IMG/VR virus record: IMGVR_UViG_3300035698_023326
Location: 1-37,827 of that record
Length of the DNA stretch: 37,827 nucleotides
DNA from: a virus
Strand: one strand, 5' to 3'
Made by a program: the position numbers and the translations under genes. Below are positions 1,786 to 37,247 of the stretch, piece after piece. Numbering within the stretch: the first letter of the stretch is position 1; the number at the start of each line of letters is the position of its first letter. Below the pieces are notes generated by a model. That model did not search any database, had not been told where the DNA came from, and was given only the letters and a program-made list of their open reading frames with translations.

Positions 1786-1977
1786 TTACGCAATTACAGG
1801 TCCAACTCCGCTTACTGGTCCTCCTGCTGGTTGTGTGACTGCAGTATAACTTGGTACAAATTTATCGTAAACCAAATAAGATTGATCTGGATTATCGAGT
1901 CGATCTATTGTTTTCTTTTTAAGTTTTTTCTTCTTTTTCTTTTTTACAAAAGTTTCTATGTATTCTCTGAAAGTCAT
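1786..1977 (-). CDS. small Lys-rich protein, first gene of the left minus-strand operon
   Basis: I take the start at MTFREYIETFVKK (63 aa) rather than the longer upstream frame, because from here it has the same leader type as its operon partners and the upstream residues are unconvincing. The leader is followed by a dense lysine tract and a C-terminus rich in Thr, Pro, Gly and Val (TQPAGGPVSGVGPVIA). That tail resembles the small protein at 5120-5320 (GGTTTGDVATYARPVGAGPV), so the two may be distant relatives. A GATAAATA element sits just upstream on the same strand and could be a late-type promoter. Function is unknown. Confidence 0.55.
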   Translation of the reverse strand: MTFREYIETFVKKKKKKKLKKKTIDRLDNPDQSYLVYDKFVPSYTAVTQPAGGPVSGVGPVIA

Positions 1978-2062
1978 TATAAGTATATTTATCATCGTGT
2001 TTGAAATAATCCACGTATTTTTTATGCGTAATCTTTGGTCATACAATATACTTATGTTTAAT

Positions 2063-3652
2063 ATGATCAAAGGGAATAAAACTATAGACGGCATTCTTAT
2101 TATGGATATTGGAAGTGGAAGTCATAAACATATAATTAGAATATGCGATTCTTGCAAAGAAGAGAAAGAAGTAGATTACAATGGTTTTATGAAGAGTCGA
2201 CAGAGAAAAAAGAAAAGAAACATGATAATAAAAGATTATTGTCGTAAATGTTCGATAAAACATTGTTTATCTGGAGATAATAGTTCTTCTAAAAAGCAAG
2301 AAGTCAGAAAAAACATGAGTTTAGCACAATTAAATAAAACTCGATCTTATGGGAAAAGAGAGCAAAAAAAAGTTATTAGAGGAAGAGGAAGATATATTTA
2401 TGTAAAAAATGATGAGGGAAAATTAGTGCCAGAACATAGACTTTTAGTTGAGAAATCAATAGGAAGAAAACTTTCCGAAGATGAAAAAATTCATCATATA
2501 GATAATGACAAAAAGAATAATAAACTAGAAAATCTTTTTACTTCAGATGAAGTAAAACATCAAAAACTTCATAGAAGTTTAGAAAAATTAGCATTTGAAT
2601 TATATAACTCGGGTCAAATAATTTTCGATCGTATAAATGGAAAGTATTATTTATCTCCTCATTTAAAAGAGAAGAGTATGAAAATAAGCCTGGGATTTGA
2701 AAATATAGCTATAATTCAAAAAAAACAAATTTGTAATTCTAGATTGGATGTTCAAACATGTTCCGAAATAATAAGAGGAATAAATAGACCAATTCCATTA
2801 ATTGCAGCAAACATGTCAACTGTATGCAATGCTGATTTTTGTATACTTCTTTATAAACTTGGAGCACTTGGAGTTTTGCATAGAGCAGATAATGATAGTA
2901 ACATATTGAAAGATATAAAGAAAATTTCTGTTGAATGTGATATTGTTGCAGCTTCGATTGGAATTAATAGCAATCAATTTGAATTTGCTAAAAAAATGAT
3001 TAAATCAGGATGTAATATTGTTTTTATTGATGTAGCTCATGGATATTGTGACCCTGTTATTGTTTTAGCAGAAAAAATAAAAAAATATAGTCCAGGAACA
3101 AAAATAGTTATAGGAAATACAACAAATATTGAATTGTTATATGAAACATATAGATTTGTAGATGGATTAAAAATTGGAATTGCTCAGGGATTTGCCTGTG
3201 AAACTAAAAATACAGCAGGGTGTACTGAAAAACAGTTTTCTGCAATTCACAAATTTAAGTATGAATCTAAAAATTTTGGGATTCCAATAATTGGCGATGG
3301 GGGGATAAGAGAACCTGCTGATTTTGTTAAATCTATAGGAGCAGGAGCAAATTCTGTTATGGCAGGTAAAATATTTGCAGAATGCCCTGAAAGCGCTGCT
3401 AAAGAAATAATAATTGATGGAAAATTGAAAAAAATATATGCCGGAATGGCTTCTTACGAGGTTCAATCAGAGTGGAGGGGAGGATTGAAAAAAGGAACAT
3501 GTTCGGAAGGCGGTACTAGACATCTTGATATTGGATTGCCTGTCCGTGAAATGATAGAAAGATATTGTGGAGCTCTTAGATCTGGAATAACATATTCTGG
3601 AGCTAAAGACATCAATACTTTTCAAAAAGAAGTGGAATTTATAAGAATATAA
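2063..3652 (+). CDS. HNH endonuclease domain fused to IMP dehydrogenase/GMP reductase-family enzyme
   Basis: One uninterrupted frame joins two domains. The first ~205 codons carry two Cys-x2-Cys pairs (CDSC, CRKC) and an HNH nuclease motif (EKIHHIDNDKKNNKLENL, then further His), typical of phage homing endonucleases. From the Met at 2678 comes a complete GMP reductase/IMP dehydrogenase barrel without CBS domains: LIAANMSTV, the catalytic-Cys loop GIAQGFACETK, GDGGIREPADFVKSIGAGA, YAGMASYE and a C-terminal LRSGITYSGAKD. The family performs NADPH reduction of GMP or NAD oxidation of IMP; which one cannot be told. The start is uncertain: the frame is open from 1958, no candidate ATG (2024, 2054, 2063, 2102) has a good ribosome-binding site, and 1958 would overlap the divergent gene. 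A purine-rich AAGAGAAGAG precedes the internal ATG at 2678, so the enzyme could also be made separately. Confidence 0.85.
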   Translation: MIKGNKTIDGILIMDIGSGSHKHIIRICDSCKEEKEVDYNGFMKSRQRKKKRNMIIKDYCRKCSIKHCLSGDNSSSKKQEVRKNMSLAQLNKTRSYGKREQKKVIRGRGRYIYVKNDEGKLVPEHRLLVEKSIGRKLSEDEKIHHIDNDKKNNKLENLFTSDEVKHQKLHRSLEKLAFELYNSGQIIFDRINGKYYLSPHLKEKSMKISLGFENIAIIQKKQICNSRLDVQTCSEIIRGINRPIPLIAANMSTVCNADFCILLYKLGALGVLHRADNDSNILKDIKKISVECDIVAASIGINSNQFEFAKKMIKSGCNIVFIDVAHGYCDPVIVLAEKIKKYSPGTKIVIGNTTNIELLYETYRFVDGLKIGIAQGFACETKNTAGCTEKQFSAIHKFKYESKNFGIPIIGDGGIREPADFVKSIGAGANSVMAGKIFAECPESAAKEIIIDGKLKKIYAGMASYEVQSEWRGGLKKGTCSEGGTRHLDIGLPVREMIERYCGALRSGITYSGAKDINTFQKEVEFIRI

Positions 3653-22271: not shown

Positions 22272-23735
22272 TTATTCTCCTAAGAATTGTTTCCATCCAT
22301 TCCATTGTTCTTCATAAGTTCTTTGAGGTTTAGATGGTAATTTTTTATCTTCTTTGTATTTGATTCTATATTCGTCTAGTTTGGTTATATTCATATTCTT
22401 AGTAACCAACCGAGCTTCTTCATATGTATAATATTTTTTTCTAGTTCCTAGAAAATCGTAGTAATCAATCCATTCTTTATTTTGATATTTTTCATCTGGA
22501 GCACAATGTAATAAAGGATCTTCTTTATATCTTTTATAGTATTCTTTTTTGTTTTTAATACCAAGCTTCTGTACAGCTTCTTTTGCTTCTTCATATGTTT
22601 CATATACTTGCTTTTTATTCTTATCAAATATATCGTACCAACTATTAAACATAGGGTATACATAAGAAGGATGAGAGGGGAGCCTAGGGTCTATTTTATA
22701 TTTTTTTCTATATTCTGTACTAGATTTTATATTCAATGCTCTAGTAGCTTCTTTAAATTCTTCGTATGTATCATAATAAGATTCATCATATTGAATATAT
22801 GCTTGCCCTTCTATGTTCATAGTCTTTTCGTTCCAGAATTCATATAAATATCCATTTTCTTCACAATATTGTATAGCAACTTTTTGTTTGAGAAGATTGT
22901 CTGGAATTACTTCCATTAGTCTAATGGGTTTTATCTCTAATATTTTTATTTCACTATTAGTATATGTTGCAATGAAATCAGGAATATAAATATGATTAGA
23001 TCCTTTGCTACTCGCATATTTTATTTGAAGAGGCTCATATGTATATTCTATACAATTGGAATCATTGTCTAGTAGGATACAAGCCGTTTTTTCATAAGAA
23101 GATTTTAACTTTATTGTATTATAACTATTCTGGCATTTAGAGCTAGTATGTCTAATTTTTTTGCAATTGCCAAATGGGTTGAATTCTCCTGATTGTATTT
23201 TATCTGCTATTGTTTGGCTTATTTGTTCTTTTATTTCTTTTTTCATTCCGCCTTGTTCTTCATAAAATTTCTTTTTTGCTTTAGAATATGTCTCTTTCAT
23301 TTCTGGCGTACGTATTTTACCAGTATTAGATATACTTCTTTTTTCGTTGGATTCTTTTGATTGTGTTTTTCCTAGTTGAGGATTGGGTTTTCCTAGATCA
23401 AAATATCTTTTTCCTTTAACATATCTAATTGTATTATTTTTTTTTGCATAATCAGACATTTTTTGTTTAGTTTCGTCTGACATCTCTCTACCTTTGAGAG
23501 TTATGCTTATTTTTTTCTTATGTTCATCAGTTGGAGGGGCTTTGAGTTTACTTTGAACATAAGACTTGCAATAATAAACACCGTGTTTATTTATATTTTT
23601 TATTATTGCATTTTTTGTGACATGTTGTGTTTCTCCGTTTCCTGCACATACAATATCCATTTTTTCTTGCTGTAGTCGTTTTTGCCCTAATGATTCTAAT
23701 TTTTGTCTTATGTTATCATAATATTCTTGGTTCAT
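22272..23735 (-). CDS. homing endonuclease-like protein: NUMOD3 motif, PD-(D/E)XK nuclease, integrase-type repeats
   Basis: Numbering from the ATG at 23741, two codons upstream. The second ATG (23735) is preferred because AGGAG is correctly spaced from it. Residues ~74-105 (KKKISITLKGREMSDETKQK) form a NUMOD3-type DNA-binding motif. Residues 215-275 look like a TnsA/PD-(D/E)XK nuclease: SSYEKTA (Glu217), HIYIPDFIA (Asp255) and ILEIKP (Glu269, Lys271). Residues ~318-489 hold three ~56-residue repeats with a TYEEA helix, a LGIK...EYRKKYK helix, DPRLPSHP and an aromatic W..W..FLG ending, similar to phage integrase repeat units. It sits beside the capsid gene, a favoured homing-endonuclease location. 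Confidence 0.75.
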   Translation of the reverse strand: MNQEYYDNIRQKLESLGQKRLQQEKMDIVCAGNGETQHVTKNAIIKNINKHGVYYCKSYVQSKLKAPPTDEHKKKISITLKGREMSDETKQKMSDYAKKNNTIRYVKGKRYFDLGKPNPQLGKTQSKESNEKRSISNTGKIRTPEMKETYSKAKKKFYEEQGGMKKEIKEQISQTIADKIQSGEFNPFGNCKKIRHTSSKCQNSYNTIKLKSSYEKTACILLDNDSNCIEYTYEPLQIKYASSKGSNHIYIPDFIATYTNSEIKILEIKPIRLMEVIPDNLLKQKVAIQYCEENGYLYEFWNEKTMNIEGQAYIQYDESYYDTYEEFKEATRALNIKSSTEYRKKYKIDPRLPSHPSYVYPMFNSWYDIFDKNKKQVYETYEEAKEAVQKLGIKNKKEYYKRYKEDPLLHCAPDEKYQNKEWIDYYDFLGTRKKYYTYEEARLVTKNMNITKLDEYRIKYKEDKKLPSKPQRTYEEQWNGWKQFLGE

Positions 23736-23855
23736 GGCCATCTCCTGTTAATTGTTTATATAATAATATAGATAATGGTGTGGAATTTTTTACATTTTTA
23801 TTATACTTTTTGCTTGCGGTGTAATAAAACCCCTTGTTGTGTACAGAAAATATAC

Positions 23856-29352: not shown

Positions 29353-30285
29353 ATGAAATTTAACGAATATTATATAATTGAGGCAAATAAACAAGAAAAA
29401 TTATTAATACAAAAAGATCCTAATTTTATATTAGGAGCTGAATTAGAATTTATAGTACGAAAAAAAGATAAACTATATGACATGGATGGTGTTGCAGACT
29501 TATTATCAATTTTTTCTCCTTATAAATTCAATTTTGATGAAGATATAACAATAGAAGAAGGGGATGATATTGGAATCGAGATACAAACTTTTCCATACGA
29601 TTGGGACAATTTTCAAAAAGTCATTAAAAATTTTTTCAAATTTATACAAAAATATGGATACACAAATAATTCTTGTAGTTTTCATGTAACTATAAATTAT
29701 AAAAATGTGAAATTACCTTCAGATTTTGGTCAAAAATTAGCACAATCAATAAACGATCCTAAAGTATATAAAGATTTCCCATCTAGAAAAGATCATCAAC
29801 ATGCTTGGTCTAGAACTAAAGCGGTTATGTATGGATTTTCTGATGATTATTATAAAAGATCATATACATTTAGACAAAGAAGAAATAATCCAGAACAAGT
29901 AGAGTTTAGAGCAATTGGCGGAAAAGATTATGAATACAAATGGGATATTATTAAAAATATTATATTAGATTATATGGTTAATTATTATAAATCAGCATTT
30001 ACTCATGATTTTATGAAGAGAAAAATGTCATATTCTTTTTCAGATTCGCAGATAAAAGCTAAATTATTGAAATCGAAAAATATAAATGATATTAAAAAAT
30101 ATATGTATCAGACAAATAAACGTTGGCTTGAAGCTGAGCCTTATATTATGAAAGATCCTGAATATGCTTTTTATTATGCCAGAGACGTAATAAAAGGTCG
30201 TTGGCCTGAAGCTGAACCTTATATTATGAAAGATCCTGAATATGCAGAAGAATATAAACATGCCGTCATTGATCAAATAAAATAA
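29353..30285 (+). CDS. amidoligase-like protein with two 26-residue C-terminal repeats
   Basis: The 310-aa protein starts MKFNEYYIIEANKQEK, a leader with I-I-E. Residues ~27-215 resemble the putative amidoligase (glutamine-synthetase-like carboxylate-amine ligase) family: GAELEFIV, a later IGIEIQTFPY, NNSCSFHVTINY and QVEFRAIGG, with Glu and His residues where ATP and metal would bind. Residues 257-308 are two copies of the 26-residue repeat (KRWLEAEPYIMKDPEYAF, then GRWPEAEPYIMKDPEYAE), shared with the proteins right of the portal gene. It is oppositely oriented to the surrounding head genes and follows a palindromic site. The repeats probably tether the enzyme to something; this is inference. 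Confidence 0.65.
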   Translation: MKFNEYYIIEANKQEKLLIQKDPNFILGAELEFIVRKKDKLYDMDGVADLLSIFSPYKFNFDEDITIEEGDDIGIEIQTFPYDWDNFQKVIKNFFKFIQKYGYTNNSCSFHVTINYKNVKLPSDFGQKLAQSINDPKVYKDFPSRKDHQHAWSRTKAVMYGFSDDYYKRSYTFRQRRNNPEQVEFRAIGGKDYEYKWDIIKNIILDYMVNYYKSAFTHDFMKRKMSYSFSDSQIKAKLLKSKNINDIKKYMYQTNKRWLEAEPYIMKDPEYAFYYARDVIKGRWPEAEPYIMKDPEYAEEYKHAVIDQIK

Positions 30286-30305: not shown

Positions 30306-33300
30306 TTACTCATCATAGTTAATATCGATTTCCTCTTCGTCAGCTTCTAAATCAGCAAAGTCTGTGAATCTCTTTGGCTTAGATTGTTCAGGCACCGCTA
30401 ATGTTTCAGGTTGTTTTTGGATATCCATTCTCAAAGGAGTTCCTTCAATTTCAGGAGCCATTTTAACTCCAGCTGCTGGTGCTTCAGGAGCCATTCCAGC
30501 TCCGGTTGCTGGTGCTTCAGGAGTTGATTCTAAACCAGGAAGACCTTCTAATCCTGGTGTTGTTCCCCCACTTGGAGGAACAGGTGGTACTCCAAATGCA
30601 GCTTGATCAGGGGTTGTTAGCTGAGCGAAGATTTGAGCCTGAGCTTGAATTTCTTGCTCTCTCAATGTCTGTTGCTCTTTTTTGTCTATAATTTCTTTTG
30701 CTTCTTCTTTTGTATGACTCAATATTTTTGTCAGTATTGTATAATCATCATATATACTACTTCCCTTTATAGAAGCAGCTAAGTTGTATCTATTAGTAAG
30801 AAGCTCAGACCTAGATAACTCCAACCAATCTGAAGGAGAGGTAAAATTAATTTTTAGACTTCTAATATCTTCTTCTGAGAACCCCTTTAGAATAAGATGT
30901 CTTATTGCTATTTGTTTTATACCCTGAGCAATAATCTTCTGAATTCTAAAAATTGTTCTCGCGAATCTCATGTCCTGAGTAGCAAAGGATGTACGGGTAA
31001 TACTTACTTCATCTTGGAATAAGTAAGTCTTAGGAAGTTTCAATGCAACCATTAATTTCTCACGGAAATATTTTGTATCATCTATTTCTCCCAAATTGCT
31101 GTTGAACGTAAATCCAATAGAATTAATACCGAATGTATGATAGCTATGATATTTTTCATCTACATCAATAGTTAATGTTCCAACTTCAATTTCATCTTCT
31201 AAATATTCTATTTTGGTAATTTTATGATTATATAATTCAATTTCATTTTTTAATTGTTCAAAGTTTTCATACCCATTAGCTTGAATCATTTTTTCTAAAT
31301 TGTGTTTTTTTATATTTTTTAATTTATTTAATTTTTTAAATTTAGCAGCAAAGATGGTATTGTTTTGAATAACATCTGTTAATTGATCTATAGATTCACA
31401 TTCGGGTATAAATGTTGAAACTTTATTCATTAATTGTTTGTGTATATTTTTATCATGATAAAGTAATAAATCTTGTTTTAATTCTCTAGTTGATTTATAC
31501 CCAAAAGACTTTACTAATTTTTTCAAATGAATTATTGTAAAGCCTTGCGATGTGTTAAAGCTCTTTCTGGCGATATGAGTATTAAGCTTCCCAAATCTTG
31601 CAATAAAATTTTTATCCTTATTAATTTTTTCTATTGTTAGATATGTTTTTCCATTTGATTCAATCATATATTGTTTAGCCTTATCAAAAAGATAAGAATC
31701 AAATTGTATTTTTTGTTTAGAAATAATATGATTTCTCATATTATCATTTTCCCACATAATAATATTTCGTTGTGATTGTTTTTTTGAAATTTCTTTCCAC
31801 ATTTCTGGTTTATTTATTTTAGACTTCGCTTGGCTTTTTTTACATATATCTTTGAACTCTTCTCTAAATTTAGGATTTTCTTTTAATTTTTTAGCCATAG
31901 CCATAGAAGCTTTATATGCATTCTTCTTGTAAATTAATCTTTTTTCTTCTCTTTCCTCTTCAGACATATTTGCTAAATATCTTTCATTTCCTTCTATTAT
32001 TCTTTGTCTAATTATAGGATCGTTTATATGACGCGAATGATAAATAGCATGGTCTTTACTTGCCATTCGTAATAAGTTTTCTGGATTATTATTATATCTG
32101 TTATAATCTATATGATGTGTTGTTTTTTTAGGTTCGTTTATATATTTTTCACAAAAATTCCACTCGCCAACTAAGTCGTTTGTAAAATAGTTAGTAATCA
32201 TTCTATGAACAAAAACCCATTCTTTAGAGTTATTATCATAAATCTGCTCATAATGTAATTTTCTAGACATACAAACTTTTTCTTTTCTTGTATTTAATGG
32301 AATAATGCTTTCGCCAACCTCTAATTCATCTGCTCTTATTTTTCCTTTACTCAAAATTGGAAACTTGTGATCAGGAGTACAAGTAATTGTTTTCCCATTA
32401 TCAAACGTGAGCTTCATGACCTTTGCTTTTTCATGTGTTGTACCGGCCCATGATACTATACCAGGAACAATTTCGCCATTTTCAGGATTACAAGAATATA
32501 TCCAATTTTGTTTTCCTAATTGATGCTCTTCTTTCATTTGTTGTAATGTAAGAACTCTACTATCTAACAATGGTATCTCGGTGTCCATTGACAAACATCC
32601 ACCTGGCAATGTTTCTATTCTAGTATTTGATTCCGGCCTGGTAGGAATGAAGAAATCTTCGTCCGCTGCCCATGCGTTATAACGTTCATCAATTTGGCCT
32701 GTTCGGCGATTATAAATCTTTTTCTTTTTAATTTTATCTCTTACTCGCTCAAGAACCGCTTCACCTTTATTTGGCGGTAGTGTTCCAACGTCAATATAGA
32801 AAATTCTGCGCTCGGGCGCTCTGGTATTGTGCGAAACCGTTCCGTTGACAATAAAATTATGGAGATTATTATCAATAGTTATATCATAAACTTCTTCTTC
32901 TCCATCAGGTTTCACTGATAATACGTTTTCGTATTTAGGAAGATCTAAGTCTGAAACATACAAGCACCAGGATAATCCTCCACTTATAAATCTTCCTGGT
33001 GTTATTTCATGATATTCGTCTCGTCTGTCTCTTTCTATTATATGACCAGAAGACAAGCCACAACTAGACCATAATTCTTTTGCATCTTCTACTAATGGTT
33101 TATTGGCTAACCCAATTGTTCCAGTCCATAACCCAGCATTTGTATATCTTACCGATCCATCTGCATCAACTAGTCCTCTGATTAATGCTTTTCTGATTTT
33201 TTTAGATGCAGTGAATGCCCATTGCGGGATTCTTTTTTTGTCATGTCCGGATACAAACCCTAAGCTTTTGAAGATTTGAGCCGCGATTGTGTTTTGAACA

Positions 33301-35393
33301 GCATAGCTTCCTACACATTCATGTTTTGTTCTTGGGTCAGGGCAGAATATAGTTTTACCAAAATATTTTTCTAATAATGATTGATATTCATGATTTAGAT
33401 CCTCGTCTATTCCTGAAGCAAAACTAATTCCATATGGTCCGATACTTCCATCGCCGAGCATAAAACCAAACAATTTAGCAAAATCTTCATCTACATATTC
33501 TGGCGTATTGATTCTTTCTGAATTAAATTCGTTTCTATTACAAACATCTAATTTTGAAGTATTAAGATCGAACATGTTGCATATTTCTATAGCATCTGTA
33601 TGTTTGAGAGCTTTATTATCTGAATATAAAAATTGTCTTATTCTTCTAATATCTACTGAACAATCACATTGTCTCATCATTTCAGTGATGTTATTATATG
33701 ACTTGGATCTAAAATTTAATTTTTGATTTAAAGAAAGCTTTGCCCATTTTTCTCCAAATATACGAGGTATTTTAACAAGAGTATTATCATTTCTAATTAT
33801 ATTTATAACTTGATGTTGTTTTGGAATTAGATTTTGGAAATCTACATATTCAACAACTCCTGTTTTTTTATCGTGGATTAAGAGAGGGTGAGTATACGTA
33901 CCTCGTAATTCAACATGTTTAGATCGTACTTTCAATATTGGTTGAACGCCGTTGTTTACATGATAACAAACATCGCTATTTATTATGTTTTCATTTTGGT
34001 CATATGAGAATACTTCATCTCCTTCTCTTAAATCTTTGATATATTTGTATCCTTCTGATGTTTGAACTCTTGATTCTCCAGTTAAGCATAGCCGGTAGAT
34101 TACCATCGCATCTTCCATAAGCTTCAAAAGGTGAGCGATACGTCTTCCGGCATATAGAACTGAAACTCCGTATGGATAGAAACCGCGTCGTCTCATTCCA
34201 ATTCTCATATGAATAACCTGCGTTGGATCGAATCGAATAACATTATTGATTTTTGGACTTCCGCTCATGGAAGCGAATTGAGTGTTTGTTCCAGTGGTCG
34301 TTACAGAGGCTTGGCCTGGGTGGTGGCCTACAGCAGAATCTGCTTGAGATGCTTTTTCTTTTATACTTGATATTACTGCTTGATAATCGGGTCCAAGATA
34401 AGATTGTTGAAATTCTAGGAGTCTTCCTCTTACTGTTTCTATTCTATATAATGTTTCTGGAGGAAGTTCAGAAATTTTTTGAATACCAAGCTCTGGGCTG
34501 TCAGCGTCGATAATTATTTCTAGAAACAAGTCTCCGTTCTTTACAACATTTCTTGACCAAGACCAGAGGTCTTCTGTTTCTAGTTGTAATAAGTCGTCAA
34601 ATAACCAGTCTAATTCTTCTTTTACTCCTTGGCTTGGCGTTGAGACATTAAATATTTTCCCATCTATATCAGGAACAGTTGTTTCGTCGGAGTTATGAAC
34701 TATAACACCATTACACGCAAAGTTATGATATATATCTGTTGTTATATCATAAACATTTTCTATTCCAATTTTTTCTACATTAAGAACAATAGAAAAGTTT
34801 TCCATTGAAACAAGTCGGTCATCTTTTGTAAGTTGGCTGGCCTCACACCATTCTCCATTTCTTTTTAGAAACTTATGGTCCCCAGTGCACTTAATAGATT
34901 TTTCATTATCAAATTTCACTTCATATATTTGATCTGTTTTGGTATACTTGACATTATGGGCGTTTCCAATTGTTATATCTTCGTTTGCTTTGTCATAACA
35001 AAATACCTCAAAATATTCTCCATTAGGATATTTTTCGAGAAGTTGTTCGATAGTAAAATCTCCACGTGGAGTGTTGATAATGCTATCTTTAGACAAGCAG
35101 TATGTATCAAGGGCCGAGGAAATTTCCGGGATGTTTTCCATTCGGTCATATTCCAGGTATCTTGCTCTTCTATCTGTATGTTCTCCGATTTCTAGAAAGT
35201 CGTTGAGATCTGTTATTTCAACAGCATGGTTAAATGTAGATCCGCCCTCTAAGTATTCAGCGGATCCCATTGCGTCAGCTCGTCCAATTCCCGCACCCGA
35301 TAGAGAAGCTGGATTTGGAGCTTCTTTAGAGAGATCGCGAGAGAATATAGAACTAAATATGTCTTTTAAAGCTTCCCAAGGTTTTGGTGCCAT
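30306..35393 (-). CDS. 20: portal protein, gp20-like, with three in-frame inteins
   Basis: A 1695-codon frame that would splice to a 639-aa portal. Extein segments are residues 1-98, 235-435, 857-932 and 1432-1695. They carry T4 gp20 hallmarks: SDETTVPDIDGKIFN, MRIGMRRRGFYPYGVSVLYA, MEDAMVIYRL joined to TRAPERRIFYIDVG, and LPGG joined to SNLGEIDDTKYFREKL. The portal is the dodecameric ring at one capsid vertex through which DNA passes, and it nucleates head assembly. The C-terminal ~110 residues are Pro/Ala/Glu-rich and disordered, beyond the T4 length. All three insertions begin with Cys, end with Asn and are followed by Ser or Thr. Without splicing the portal could not fold, so they should be active. 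The ATG overlaps a TATAAAT stretch with GAGAGG upstream. Confidence 0.95.
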   Translation of the reverse strand: MAPKPWEALKDIFSSIFSRDLSKEAPNPASLSGAGIGRADAMGSAEYLEGGSTFNHAVEITDLNDFLEIGEHTDRRARYLEYDRMENIPEISSALDTYCLSKDSIINTPRGDFTIEQLLEKYPNGEYFEVFCYDKANEDITIGNAHNVKYTKTDQIYEVKFDNEKSIKCTGDHKFLKRNGEWCEASQLTKDDRLVSMENFSIVLNVEKIGIENVYDITTDIYHNFACNGVIVHNSDETTVPDIDGKIFNVSTPSQGVKEELDWLFDDLLQLETEDLWSWSRNVVKNGDLFLEIIIDADSPELGIQKISELPPETLYRIETVRGRLLEFQQSYLGPDYQAVISSIKEKASQADSAVGHHPGQASVTTTGTNTQFASMSGSPKINNVIRFDPTQVIHMRIGMRRRGFYPYGVSVLYAGRRIAHLLKLMEDAMVIYRLCLTGESRVQTSEGYKYIKDLREGDEVFSYDQNENIINSDVCYHVNNGVQPILKVRSKHVELRGTYTHPLLIHDKKTGVVEYVDFQNLIPKQHQVINIIRNDNTLVKIPRIFGEKWAKLSLNQKLNFRSKSYNNITEMMRQCDCSVDIRRIRQFLYSDNKALKHTDAIEICNMFDLNTSKLDVCNRNEFNSERINTPEYVDEDFAKLFGFMLGDGSIGPYGISFASGIDEDLNHEYQSLLEKYFGKTIFCPDPRTKHECVGSYAVQNTIAAQIFKSLGFVSGHDKKRIPQWAFTASKKIRKALIRGLVDADGSVRYTNAGLWTGTIGLANKPLVEDAKELWSSCGLSSGHIIERDRRDEYHEITPGRFISGGLSWCLYVSDLDLPKYENVLSVKPDGEEEVYDITIDNNLHNFIVNGTVSHNTRAPERRIFYIDVGTLPPNKGEAVLERVRDKIKKKKIYNRRTGQIDERYNAWAADEDFFIPTRPESNTRIETLPGGCLSMDTEIPLLDSRVLTLQQMKEEHQLGKQNWIYSCNPENGEIVPGIVSWAGTTHEKAKVMKLTFDNGKTITCTPDHKFPILSKGKIRADELEVGESIIPLNTRKEKVCMSRKLHYEQIYDNNSKEWVFVHRMITNYFTNDLVGEWNFCEKYINEPKKTTHHIDYNRYNNNPENLLRMASKDHAIYHSRHINDPIIRQRIIEGNERYLANMSEEEREEKRLIYKKNAYKASMAMAKKLKENPKFREEFKDICKKSQAKSKINKPEMWKEISKKQSQRNIIMWENDNMRNHIISKQKIQFDSYLFDKAKQYMIESNGKTYLTIEKINKDKNFIARFGKLNTHIARKSFNTSQGFTIIHLKKLVKSFGYKSTRELKQDLLLYHDKNIHKQLMNKVSTFIPECESIDQLTDVIQNNTIFAAKFKKLNKLKNIKKHNLEKMIQANGYENFEQLKNEIELYNHKITKIEYLEDEIEVGTLTIDVDEKYHSYHTFGINSIGFTFNSNLGEIDDTKYFREKLMVALKLPKTYLFQDEVSITRTSFATQDMRFARTIFRIQKIIAQGIKQIAIRHLILKGFSEEDIRSLKINFTSPSDWLELSRSELLTNRYNLAASIKGSSIYDDYTILTKILSHTKEEAKEIIDKKEQQTLREQEIQAQAQIFAQLTTPDQAAFGVPPVPPSGGTTPGLEGLPGLESTPEAPATGAGMAPEAPAAGVKMAPEIEGTPLRMDIQKQPETLAVPEQSKPKRFTDFADLEADEEEIDINYDE
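31101..32597 (-). other. intein 3: HNH-nuclease intein with Phe before the terminal Asn
   Basis: Portal residues 933-1431 (499 aa). It starts CLSMDTEIPLLDSRVLTLQQ, has block B ITCTPDHKFPI, then an HNH motif THHIDYNRYNNNPENLLRM with DHAIYHSRH (1092-1120). A Lys-rich region (1150-1390) with two similar helical units, FTIIHLKKLVKSFGYKS and IKKHNLEKMIQANGYEN, is likely DNA binding. The end is TLTIDVDEKYHSYHTFGINS, then IGFTFN and extein Ser. The usual penultimate His is Phe. The junction is TLPGG/SNLGE. Confidence 0.9.
32826..34088 (-). other. intein 2: LAGLIDADG homing-endonuclease intein
   Basis: Portal residues 436-856 (421 aa). Block A is CLTGESRVQTSEGYKYIKDL, block B ELRGTYTHPLLI. Two dodecapeptide motifs, LFGFMLGDGS (641-650) and LIRGLVDADGS (737-747), mark a LAGLIDADG nuclease. 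It ends VYDITIDNNLHNFIVNGTVS, then His-Asn, with Thr as the +1 residue. The extein junction is VIYRL/TRAPE. Confidence 0.95.
34692..35099 (-). other. intein 1: mini-intein without nuclease
   Basis: Portal residues 99-234 (136 aa). It starts CLSKDSIINTPRGDFTIEQL (block A), has IKCTGDHKFL (block B, Thr and His) and ends VYDITTDIYHNFACNGVIVH plus Asn, followed by extein Ser. No nuclease fits in this length. The extein junction is ALDTY/SDETT. Confidence 0.93.
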
Positions 35394-35465: not shown

Positions 35466-36752
35466 ATGCGTAGATTTAGAGAATTTATAAATATTCCAAA
35501 CTATAAATTAAAATCATTTAATGAATTTTTACTAAATGAATCTATTTCTTATACTTATAAAGTTCCGTCTTCTCCGCAAAAACAATTATTTGATTTCTAT
35601 TTATGGTCGTTATTCTACCAATATGGTCTAAATAAAATATTACCAAGTATGGAAGATAATAAACAAGATTTGGAAGTTATTGTTGAAGATGCAATAAAAA
35701 AGATTACTGATAGCCAGCAATTATTGTTATTATCTACTGGTTTAACTTCAATTGCTTCTGAACTAAGACATGTATATGTGAGAAATAGTAAAATTGATAT
35801 AAAACAGTTTTTTATTGATAAAGGGTTAGATTATAACAAATTTGAAAATTGGCATAATAATATTTTAGCTGAAAATATTGTACCAGCAGAAGGCAATAGT
35901 AATATTAGAGATAAAGCTGGTAAATCAATCATTAGTTCTGGTTACCGATCTTATGAATTTGTAAATATTGCCCAACAATTATTTGATAATATGAAATGGG
36001 ACGCAAGTTTTGGTGGTAAACCTTGGGTAAAGATATGTAAAGGTTGGAAACAATTATATAGTGCTAATAATGTAAATGACAAGATAAAATCAATTGACCA
36101 TATATATGATTTACAACATAATACTGGTTTTGCTTTAAATAAAACAAAAATATTTGATAATACCTGGATAAAAACTGCTTTAGATACAAAATATAGCGGC
36201 AAAATTTGGGAACTAGTAAACAATAGTTCAATACCACAAAAAATAGTTGGTTATTTAGTAAAATTGTCTGGTGTTGGTGAAAGCAAAGAATCTGAAGAAT
36301 CTGATTTGAGTAATTATACAGCTGAACAATTATATGAAAAAGCATTGGCTTCAGGTAAACGTTGGCTAGAAGCCGAACCATATATTATGAAAAATCCTGA
36401 TTTTGCTTATTTATATGCAAAACGTATAATAAGAAGACGTTGGCCTGAAGCCGAACCTTTTATAATGAAAAATCCTTATTTTGCTTATTGGTATGCAAAA
36501 GATGTAATAAAAGGACGTTGGCCTGAAGCAGAACCTTACATCATGAAAGATCCTCAATCTGCTGCGTGGTATGCAACAGATGCAATAAAAGATCGTTGGC
36601 CTAAAGCTGAACCTTACATCATGAAAGATCCAGAATATGCTTATTGGTATGCAAAAAATGTAATAAAGGGTCGTTGGCCTGAAGCCGAACCTTATATCAT
36701 GAAAGATCCTGATTTTGCTTCTTTGTATACAAACATGATGAAAGGCCATTAA
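35466..36752 (+). CDS. repeat protein: unknown N-terminal domain plus five 26-residue repeats
   Basis: A 428-aa protein. It begins with two stacked leader-like peptides, MRRFREFINIPNY and KLKSFNEFLLNES. Residues ~28-275 form an unrecognised helical domain with LFDFYLWSLFYQYGLNKILP and DKAGKSIISSGYRSYEFV. From residue 299, five repeats follow with an exact period of 26 (Arg-Trp at 299, 325, 351, 377, 403), consensus RWPEAEPYIMKDPxxAxxYA plus a basic KxVIKG. They would form a helical solenoid. The stop at 36750 interrupts a sixth, degraded unit. It diverges from the portal gene across 72 bases and is paralogous to the genes at 1-202 and 37322. Function unknown. Confidence 0.85.
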   Translation: MRRFREFINIPNYKLKSFNEFLLNESISYTYKVPSSPQKQLFDFYLWSLFYQYGLNKILPSMEDNKQDLEVIVEDAIKKITDSQQLLLLSTGLTSIASELRHVYVRNSKIDIKQFFIDKGLDYNKFENWHNNILAENIVPAEGNSNIRDKAGKSIISSGYRSYEFVNIAQQLFDNMKWDASFGGKPWVKICKGWKQLYSANNVNDKIKSIDHIYDLQHNTGFALNKTKIFDNTWIKTALDTKYSGKIWELVNNSSIPQKIVGYLVKLSGVGESKESEESDLSNYTAEQLYEKALASGKRWLEAEPYIMKNPDFAYLYAKRIIRRRWPEAEPFIMKNPYFAYWYAKDVIKGRWPEAEPYIMKDPQSAAWYATDAIKDRWPKAEPYIMKDPEYAYWYAKNVIKGRWPEAEPYIMKDPDFASLYTNMMKGH

Positions 36753-36872: not shown

Positions 36873-37247
36873 TTGAATAAATTTAATATATCACAACACA
36901 AATTGAAAACATTTTACGAATTTATATATGGTGATTCTTCTTTGCCAAAATTTAAAGATGCTAAATTCGCATATGATTATATTGTAAACAATAATCTAGG
37001 ACGGCAGGAAGAAATCGAACTCTATATAATGGAAGATCCAGAATATGCTTATAAATATGCCAAAAACATATTAAAAGGAAGGTGGGAAAACGCTGAGCCT
37101 TATATAAGAAATTCTAGATATGCAAGTTTATATGCCAAAAACGTATTGAATGGAGATTGGCCAGTAATCAAACCTGAAACTGATTCAATAATTAATTATA
37201 AAGACCAAGGTTCACCTGGGGCAACTATTTTACCAGTAAAAATGTAG
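36873..37247 (+). CDS. short repeat protein of the same family
   Basis: A 124-aa protein with a TTG start (NKFNISQHKLKTFYEFIYGD), aligning with the leader of the 35466 protein but lacking its large middle domain. Two to three degenerate 26-residue repeats follow: IELYIMEDPEYAYKYAKNIL, GRWENAEPYIRNSRYASLYA and NGDWPVIKPE. The tail is NYKDQGSPGATILPVKM. It looks like a deletion derivative of the larger gene. No ATG or ribosome-binding site is clear, so it could be decaying. Confidence 0.65.
   Translation: MNKFNISQHKLKTFYEFIYGDSSLPKFKDAKFAYDYIVNNNLGRQEEIELYIMEDPEYAYKYAKNILKGRWENAEPYIRNSRYASLYAKNVLNGDWPVIKPETDSIINYKDQGSPGATILPVKM

Follow-up and report, generated by a model that had tools for sequence, protein, structure and literature searches.

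Inteins in phage packaging genes are known from mycobacteriophages, where the portal (PORT) and TerL carry them (PMC5050341). TerL-type proteins have seven intein sites at functional centres, and splicing as well as cleavage of inteinless alleles was shown for representatives; the portal is that of Cluster C1 and not of the T4 type, and neither two or three inteins in one protein nor regional families of portal inteins were found in that account (PMC5050341). Two inteins in one phage gene have already been described (PMC7886860, PMC3322345), as in the TerL of crAss-like phages with its two Hint-Hop inteins (PMC7886860). The best described intein hot spot that we found is Prp8, one essential gene with 7 sites near its functional centre, between which the limited homology was read as independent entries (PMC6805012).

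Here we describe a portal gene on IMG/VR record IMGVR_UViG_3300035698_023326, a 37.8-kb metagenomic viral fragment analysed over its full length of 37,827 bases (the window). It joins the known phage-packaging inteins and, like crAss-like TerL, holds several of them in frame, but the gene is a T4-type portal, and its inteins are three in number and differ in nuclease state. The part that may be new is their regional spread: inteins at neighbouring portal sites are nearest kin, which is the opposite of the pattern in Prp8. T4 gp20 (PDB 3ja7, 6uzc, 9lu6) represents the same extein family; it is inteinless, and its homology to the window portal, the C-terminal tail of which is longer, is distant. 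In the open-access literature (most subscription journals lay outside our search), our search met with neither a description of a T4-type portal that holds three or four inteins nor one of regional families among portal inteins.

Anatomy of the portal gene

A sequence-only reading of the window had placed three inteins of three types (mini, LAGLIDADG and HNH) in a gp20-like frame, each starting with Cys and ending in Asn before Ser or Thr. Boundaries and Pfam and PHROGs matches bore this out to the residue, the +1 positions being Ser, Thr and Ser. The gene is organised as follows:

30306–35393, minus strand: portal (gp20-type) precursor ORF, 1695 aa, a single open frame
35100–35393, minus strand: extein 1, 98 aa (aa 1–98)
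34692–35099, minus strand: intein I1, a 136-aa mini-intein (ORF aa 99–234); Cys1, TGDH in block B, VIVHN before S
34089–34691, minus strand: extein 2, 201 aa
32826–34088, minus strand: intein I2, 421 aa, LAGLIDADG (ORF aa 436–856); Cys1, TVSHN before T
33447–33473, minus strand: first LAGLIDADG motif of I2, LFGFMLGDG, read from the sequence
33156–33188, minus strand: second LAGLIDADG motif of I2, ALIRGLVDADG, read from the sequence
32598–32825, minus strand: extein 3, 76 aa
31101–32597, minus strand: intein I3, 499 aa, HNH (ORF aa 933–1431); Cys1, TPDH in block B, IGFTFN before S
32049–32117, minus strand: HNH motif region of I3, HNH_3 match (ORF aa 1093–1115)
30306–31100, minus strand: extein 4 (264 aa) and stop codon

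Once I1, I2 and I3 are removed, the exteins add up to 639 aa (98 + 201 + 76 + 264). Portal_T4 (PF07230) matched three stretches of the ORF (E = 1.8e-63, 215 bits against a cut-off of 22.9), alternating with three stretches of Intein_splicing (PF14890, E = 2.4e-37 for the whole ORF); three stretches were also matched by intein_Nterm of NCBIfam. Searched one by one, as the sequence-only reading had proposed, all three segments matched intein profiles (PF14890: 54.7 bits for I1, 43.3 for I2 and 55.4 for I3; curated cut-off 35.8) and solved inteins. Each has Cys at position 1 of block A (CLSK, CLTG and CLSM in I1, I2 and I3), TxxH in block B (TGDH, TYTH and TPDH) and a C-terminal Asn followed by Ser or Thr (HN before S, HN before T, FN before S). 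The penultimate His, common but not obligatory in class-1 inteins, is present in I1 and I2 and is replaced by Phe in I3. Judged by sequence criteria, the three are class-1 inteins, and splicing is predicted because Cys1, block B, block F and the Asn and +1 residues are intact.

Both LAGLIDADG motifs of I2 (LFGFMLGDG and LIRGLVDADG) contain their acidic residues, and the intein matched LAGLIDADG_3 (PF14528) with 32.2 bits against a cut-off of 22.5. The HNH assignment of I3 comes from PHROGs (1e-6); HNH_3 of Pfam was below its cut-off (E = 0.0048) and matched better in the homologues of two relatives, L017 and L039 (2.6e-8 in L039). The AlphaFold predictions for I1 and I3 had too low a confidence to be used (pLDDT 37 and 51).

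The profile matches identify the gene as a T4-type portal (gp20). Aligned with solved T4 gp20 chains, another step that had been suggested, the spliced protein matched 3ja7 (E about 1e-34). Downstream on the same strand lie a T4-type head maturation protease and the major capsid protein, which is the setting expected of gene 20 by comparison with T4. Neither further inteins nor Rfam families (group I introns included) or tRNAs were found in the window.

Splice junctions

The junctions were analysed with a portal HMM built from inteinless portals and T4, the window sequence being left out. While the unspliced ORF matched this HMM in three pieces, the best with 61.6 bits, the spliced 639-aa protein gave a single continuous match of 184.9 bits. 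Random excision of three C...N(S/T/C) segments, repeated 300 times, scored 51 bits on average and at most 130. With every Cys taken as a candidate start and every Asn before Ser, Thr or Cys as a candidate end, the proposed pair ranked first at each junction (among 7, 29 and 31 candidates). That is, removal of the segments restores one continuous gp20-like sequence of 639 aa, as the first reading had held.

We consider it highly probable that the portal subunit is made as a 1695-aa precursor with three self-splicing inteins that belong to three regional families. The class-1 inteins would excise themselves by an acyl shift at Cys1, transesterification to Ser, Thr and Ser at +1, and Asn cyclisation, joining the four exteins into the 639-aa portal. 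I2 and I3, the LAGLIDADG and HNH motifs of which are intact, would probably remain able to home into related phages whose alleles are empty, while I1, its nuclease lost, would be inherited with the gene. Each would derive from a portal-specific family whose members occupy neighbouring sites within a single stretch of the gene.

Position of the insertion sites

In the spliced protein, I1 lies at Y98^S99 (portal HMM column k92), I2 at YRL^TRAPER (k277) and I3 at TLPGG^SNLGE (k354). The sites were mapped by alignment with T4 gp20, using published domain limits (PMC4493910). I1 falls at the start of the T4 wing domain (about residue 96–102), which is the least certain of the three mappings. I2 maps to the end of stem helix alpha5 (the stem-clip junction), its flanking T4 residues being I276 and T277, and I3 between A353 and D354, within the channel loop (350–359), one of the constrictions that may contact DNA (PMC4493910). 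An unspliced insert at these sites should block assembly of the dodecamer or the channel, and since this applies to all three, splicing would have to precede assembly. A virion protein that splices three times before a twelve-subunit ring is formed would be a strict natural test of splicing efficiency.

I3 ends in FTFN, and the penultimate His is absent in all 42 distinct inteins called at k354, most of which have Lys there. Because splicing has been documented in inteins that lack this His (reference 74 of PMC4031507), its absence points to a family trait rather than decay; C-terminal cleavage of I3 may be slow or differently assisted. Shorter members of the I3 family exist, with HNH (237 aa, L039) and without it (179 aa, L034), and a further relative is empty (L040). 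Read from their sequences, these states look like a homing cycle at one site.

Regional intein families

From a search with an alignment of I3 relatives, the best 80 viral loci were retrieved, and the intein-bearing ORFs that we read from them were T4-type portals with very few exceptions; in these, a contig carried a second intein in a gene other than the portal. Throughout the intein-based scans, portals made up 67 of the 70 intein-bearing viral ORFs for I3, 29 of 33 for I2 and 55 of 56 for I1 and its kin, where the 56th (L273) is a truncated portal. The next relatives outside portals were mainly inteins of CPR bacteria, DPANN archaea and Omnitrophota, labelled GyrB- or GyrA-type from their flanking residues.

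Portal inteins occupied 23 alignment columns, which correspond to about 20 sites, since columns that differ by a single residue may in some cases stand for the same site. The sites cluster in three stretches (k77–96, k252–277 and k317–396). A tree of 130 splicing domains placed I1, I2 and I3 in three different groups; it is based on 146 columns, a quick method and sampling guided by the window's inteins, and half of its forks are open. All inteins of the middle stretch are found on the same side of a single branch (support 78), and 51 of the 54 from the last stretch group together. Group labels changed 9 times on the tree, against 63.8 times when shuffled (none of 200 shuffles was as low), and among portal inteins alone the minimum number of changes was 27 for site and 3 for stretch. 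Inteins at nearby sites are related to each other (Mantel rho 0.31, a value reached in 8 of 2,000 permutations); for 20 of the 23 sites the nearest other site is in the same stretch, at most 32 columns away. In several genes, two or three of the inteins come from a single family; in L176, those at k331 and k354 are 53% identical and form sister rows (SH-aLRT 94).

Since the relatives of each window intein are found almost only in portals and in the same stretch, their distribution argues for local spread and not for random entry. The premise of the sequence-only reading, that inteins settle in conserved sites, misses this spread: portal-specific families occupy neighbouring sites. We put at about even the chance that the T4-type portals of phages that are uncultured and in many cases very large rank among the densest hot spots of inteins yet described (up to four per gene), in which three largely portal-restricted families, each in one stretch, spread mainly from one site to another close by ('intein walking'), in some cases through duplication inside one gene, instead of homing to one cognate site only. 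Across the wider portal set, many neighbouring sites of one gene represent a single intein family in several states (empty, mini, nuclease-bearing and duplicated). This is a rarer resource than a thrice-spliced virion protein, and it makes directly testable by what route inteins come to occupy new sites.

I1 and the neighbouring k96 intein

The nearest relative found, L017, carries homologues of I1 (61% identical) and I3 (41%) at identical sites. Its I1 homologue is likewise a mini-intein (140 aa), and some inteins at sites near k92 carry HNH, both of which support the earlier view that I1 has lost its nuclease. Every other portal of the window's own clade has an intein at k96, four residues downstream of the I1 site. 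The k96 inteins (L005–L016, L045–L060 and others) are 228–237 aa long, and 200–300 aa in 80 of 81 distinct cases; they have no recognised nuclease and share a conserved insert of about 100 aa, for which no convincing relative was found in the PDB. The k96 intein is seemingly non-homing, yet it was never seen lost in this clade. Split inteins, which had been considered for L005–L016, were rejected; one open frame with a 231-aa intein four residues downstream explains the data.

I1 might not be a separate arrival, but a shifted descendant of the k96 intein. This variant is compatible with the reading of three regional families, and we regard it as possible while leaning against it. Outside k92, the k96 inteins are the best-scoring relatives of I1 (104 bits), and they form its sister group in the tree (SH-aLRT 84), if with long branches and modest support; inteins at k86 are nearly as close to I1 by tree path. 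In the portal-based sample of the clade, k96 is occupied in 23 near-complete portals, only the window and L017 have k92 instead, and none is empty. A shift by four residues, however, requires recombination and not point changes.

Frequency of portals with several inteins

Inteins were called by spliced alignment with profile-supported junctions in a set of 267 distinct portal ORFs that is enriched for them. At least one was present in 180 of these ORFs: one intein in 139 ORFs, two in 32, three in 8, the window gene among these, and four in one (L237, 1852 aa, for which Pfam supports four splicing-domain stretches). Among the portals with several inteins is that of a 484-kb huge-phage record, LR756508, with three splicing-domain stretches according to Pfam. 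Prevalence was taken from the portal-based searches alone, because intein-based scans are biased to intein-bearing portals; here, 27 of 94 near-complete portals had inteins (two in 7 of them, three in none) and 67 were inteinless. Three inteins in one portal are thus rare but not unique. The sequence-only reading had called such a portal unusual, which holds as to its rarity; it is not an isolated case, as two to four inteins recur in portals of environmental viruses. Annotation is affected as well: as long as the inteins are left in, the portal markers of large phages will appear truncated or too long.

This rarity, together with the metagenomic origin of the contig, could suggest that the portal has decayed, no longer functions and is overrun by inteins, or that the precursor is an assembly chimera. 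We consider either very unlikely: no stop codon interrupts the 1695 codons, the catalytic residues are intact, and all exteins are collinear with those of L017 (extein pieces 74, 65 and 56% identical). Portals with three inteins also occur in independent records, the 484-kb one included.

Several further ORFs were seen in these searches. The portal ORFs of L237 (3762–9317, 1852 aa) and L241 (1380–7559, 2060 aa) have four intein splicing stretches each. L410 (1–2478), on a contig filed under a bacterial MAG (Izimaplasma), seems to encode a phage portal of divergent sequence that holds three inteins or more, of which two lie near the tunnel loop. Terminase-like ORFs with inteins (L167, 94–2883, and L231, 1–3114) lie on contigs with intein-bearing portals.

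Relatives with empty sites

Related portals serve as natural controls. In L017, site 2 is empty and the sequence across it reads ...ATTTACAGACTC^ACGCGCGCGCCA..., against ...ATCTACCGGCTA^(I2)^ACCAGAGCGCCC... in the window. Sites 2 and 3 are empty in L005 and its kin, L018 has an I2-type intein (37%) exactly at site 2, and in the T4 portal all three sites are empty, as in most other portals. Because of these empty-site relatives, I1, I2 and I3 are best regarded as optional inserts and not as portal domains. Splice residues are kept in the intein homologues. The first reading had named related portals with these segments in the mature protein as evidence that would speak against it; among the relatives examined, we saw none that retains a segment without splice residues.

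That the three segments are ordinary inserted domains kept in the mature portal is accordingly highly improbable. The frame is open throughout and splicing itself is predicted rather than observed, which would suit retained domains; against this, all three are intein domains with splice residues, the same protein exists seamlessly joined without each of them, and they would interrupt the end of the stem helix and the channel loop.

Scarcely credible is an origin of I1, I2 and I3 as duplicates of one intein within this gene, for although sister inteins of the L176 kind occur at neighbouring sites in other portals, the window's three are only 27–38% identical in their splicing domains, and the tree places each of them, within its own stretch, beside inteins from other phages. 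This pairwise identity and the three tree groups favour three independent invasions, as first proposed.

Other genes in the window

ORFs with common tandem repeats of about 26 aa (RWPEAEPYIMKDPEYA...) surround the portal on the plus strand (29353–30285, 35466–36752 and 36873–37247); the first two had no Pfam match. In the 564-aa product of 1958–3652 on the plus strand, an IMP dehydrogenase/GMP reductase domain carries an in-frame HNH endonuclease at its N terminus. Beside the capsid genes, an ORF on the minus strand (22272–23741) combines a TnsA-like endonuclease domain with integrase repeat units (INT_rpt) and is possibly a free-standing homing endonuclease.
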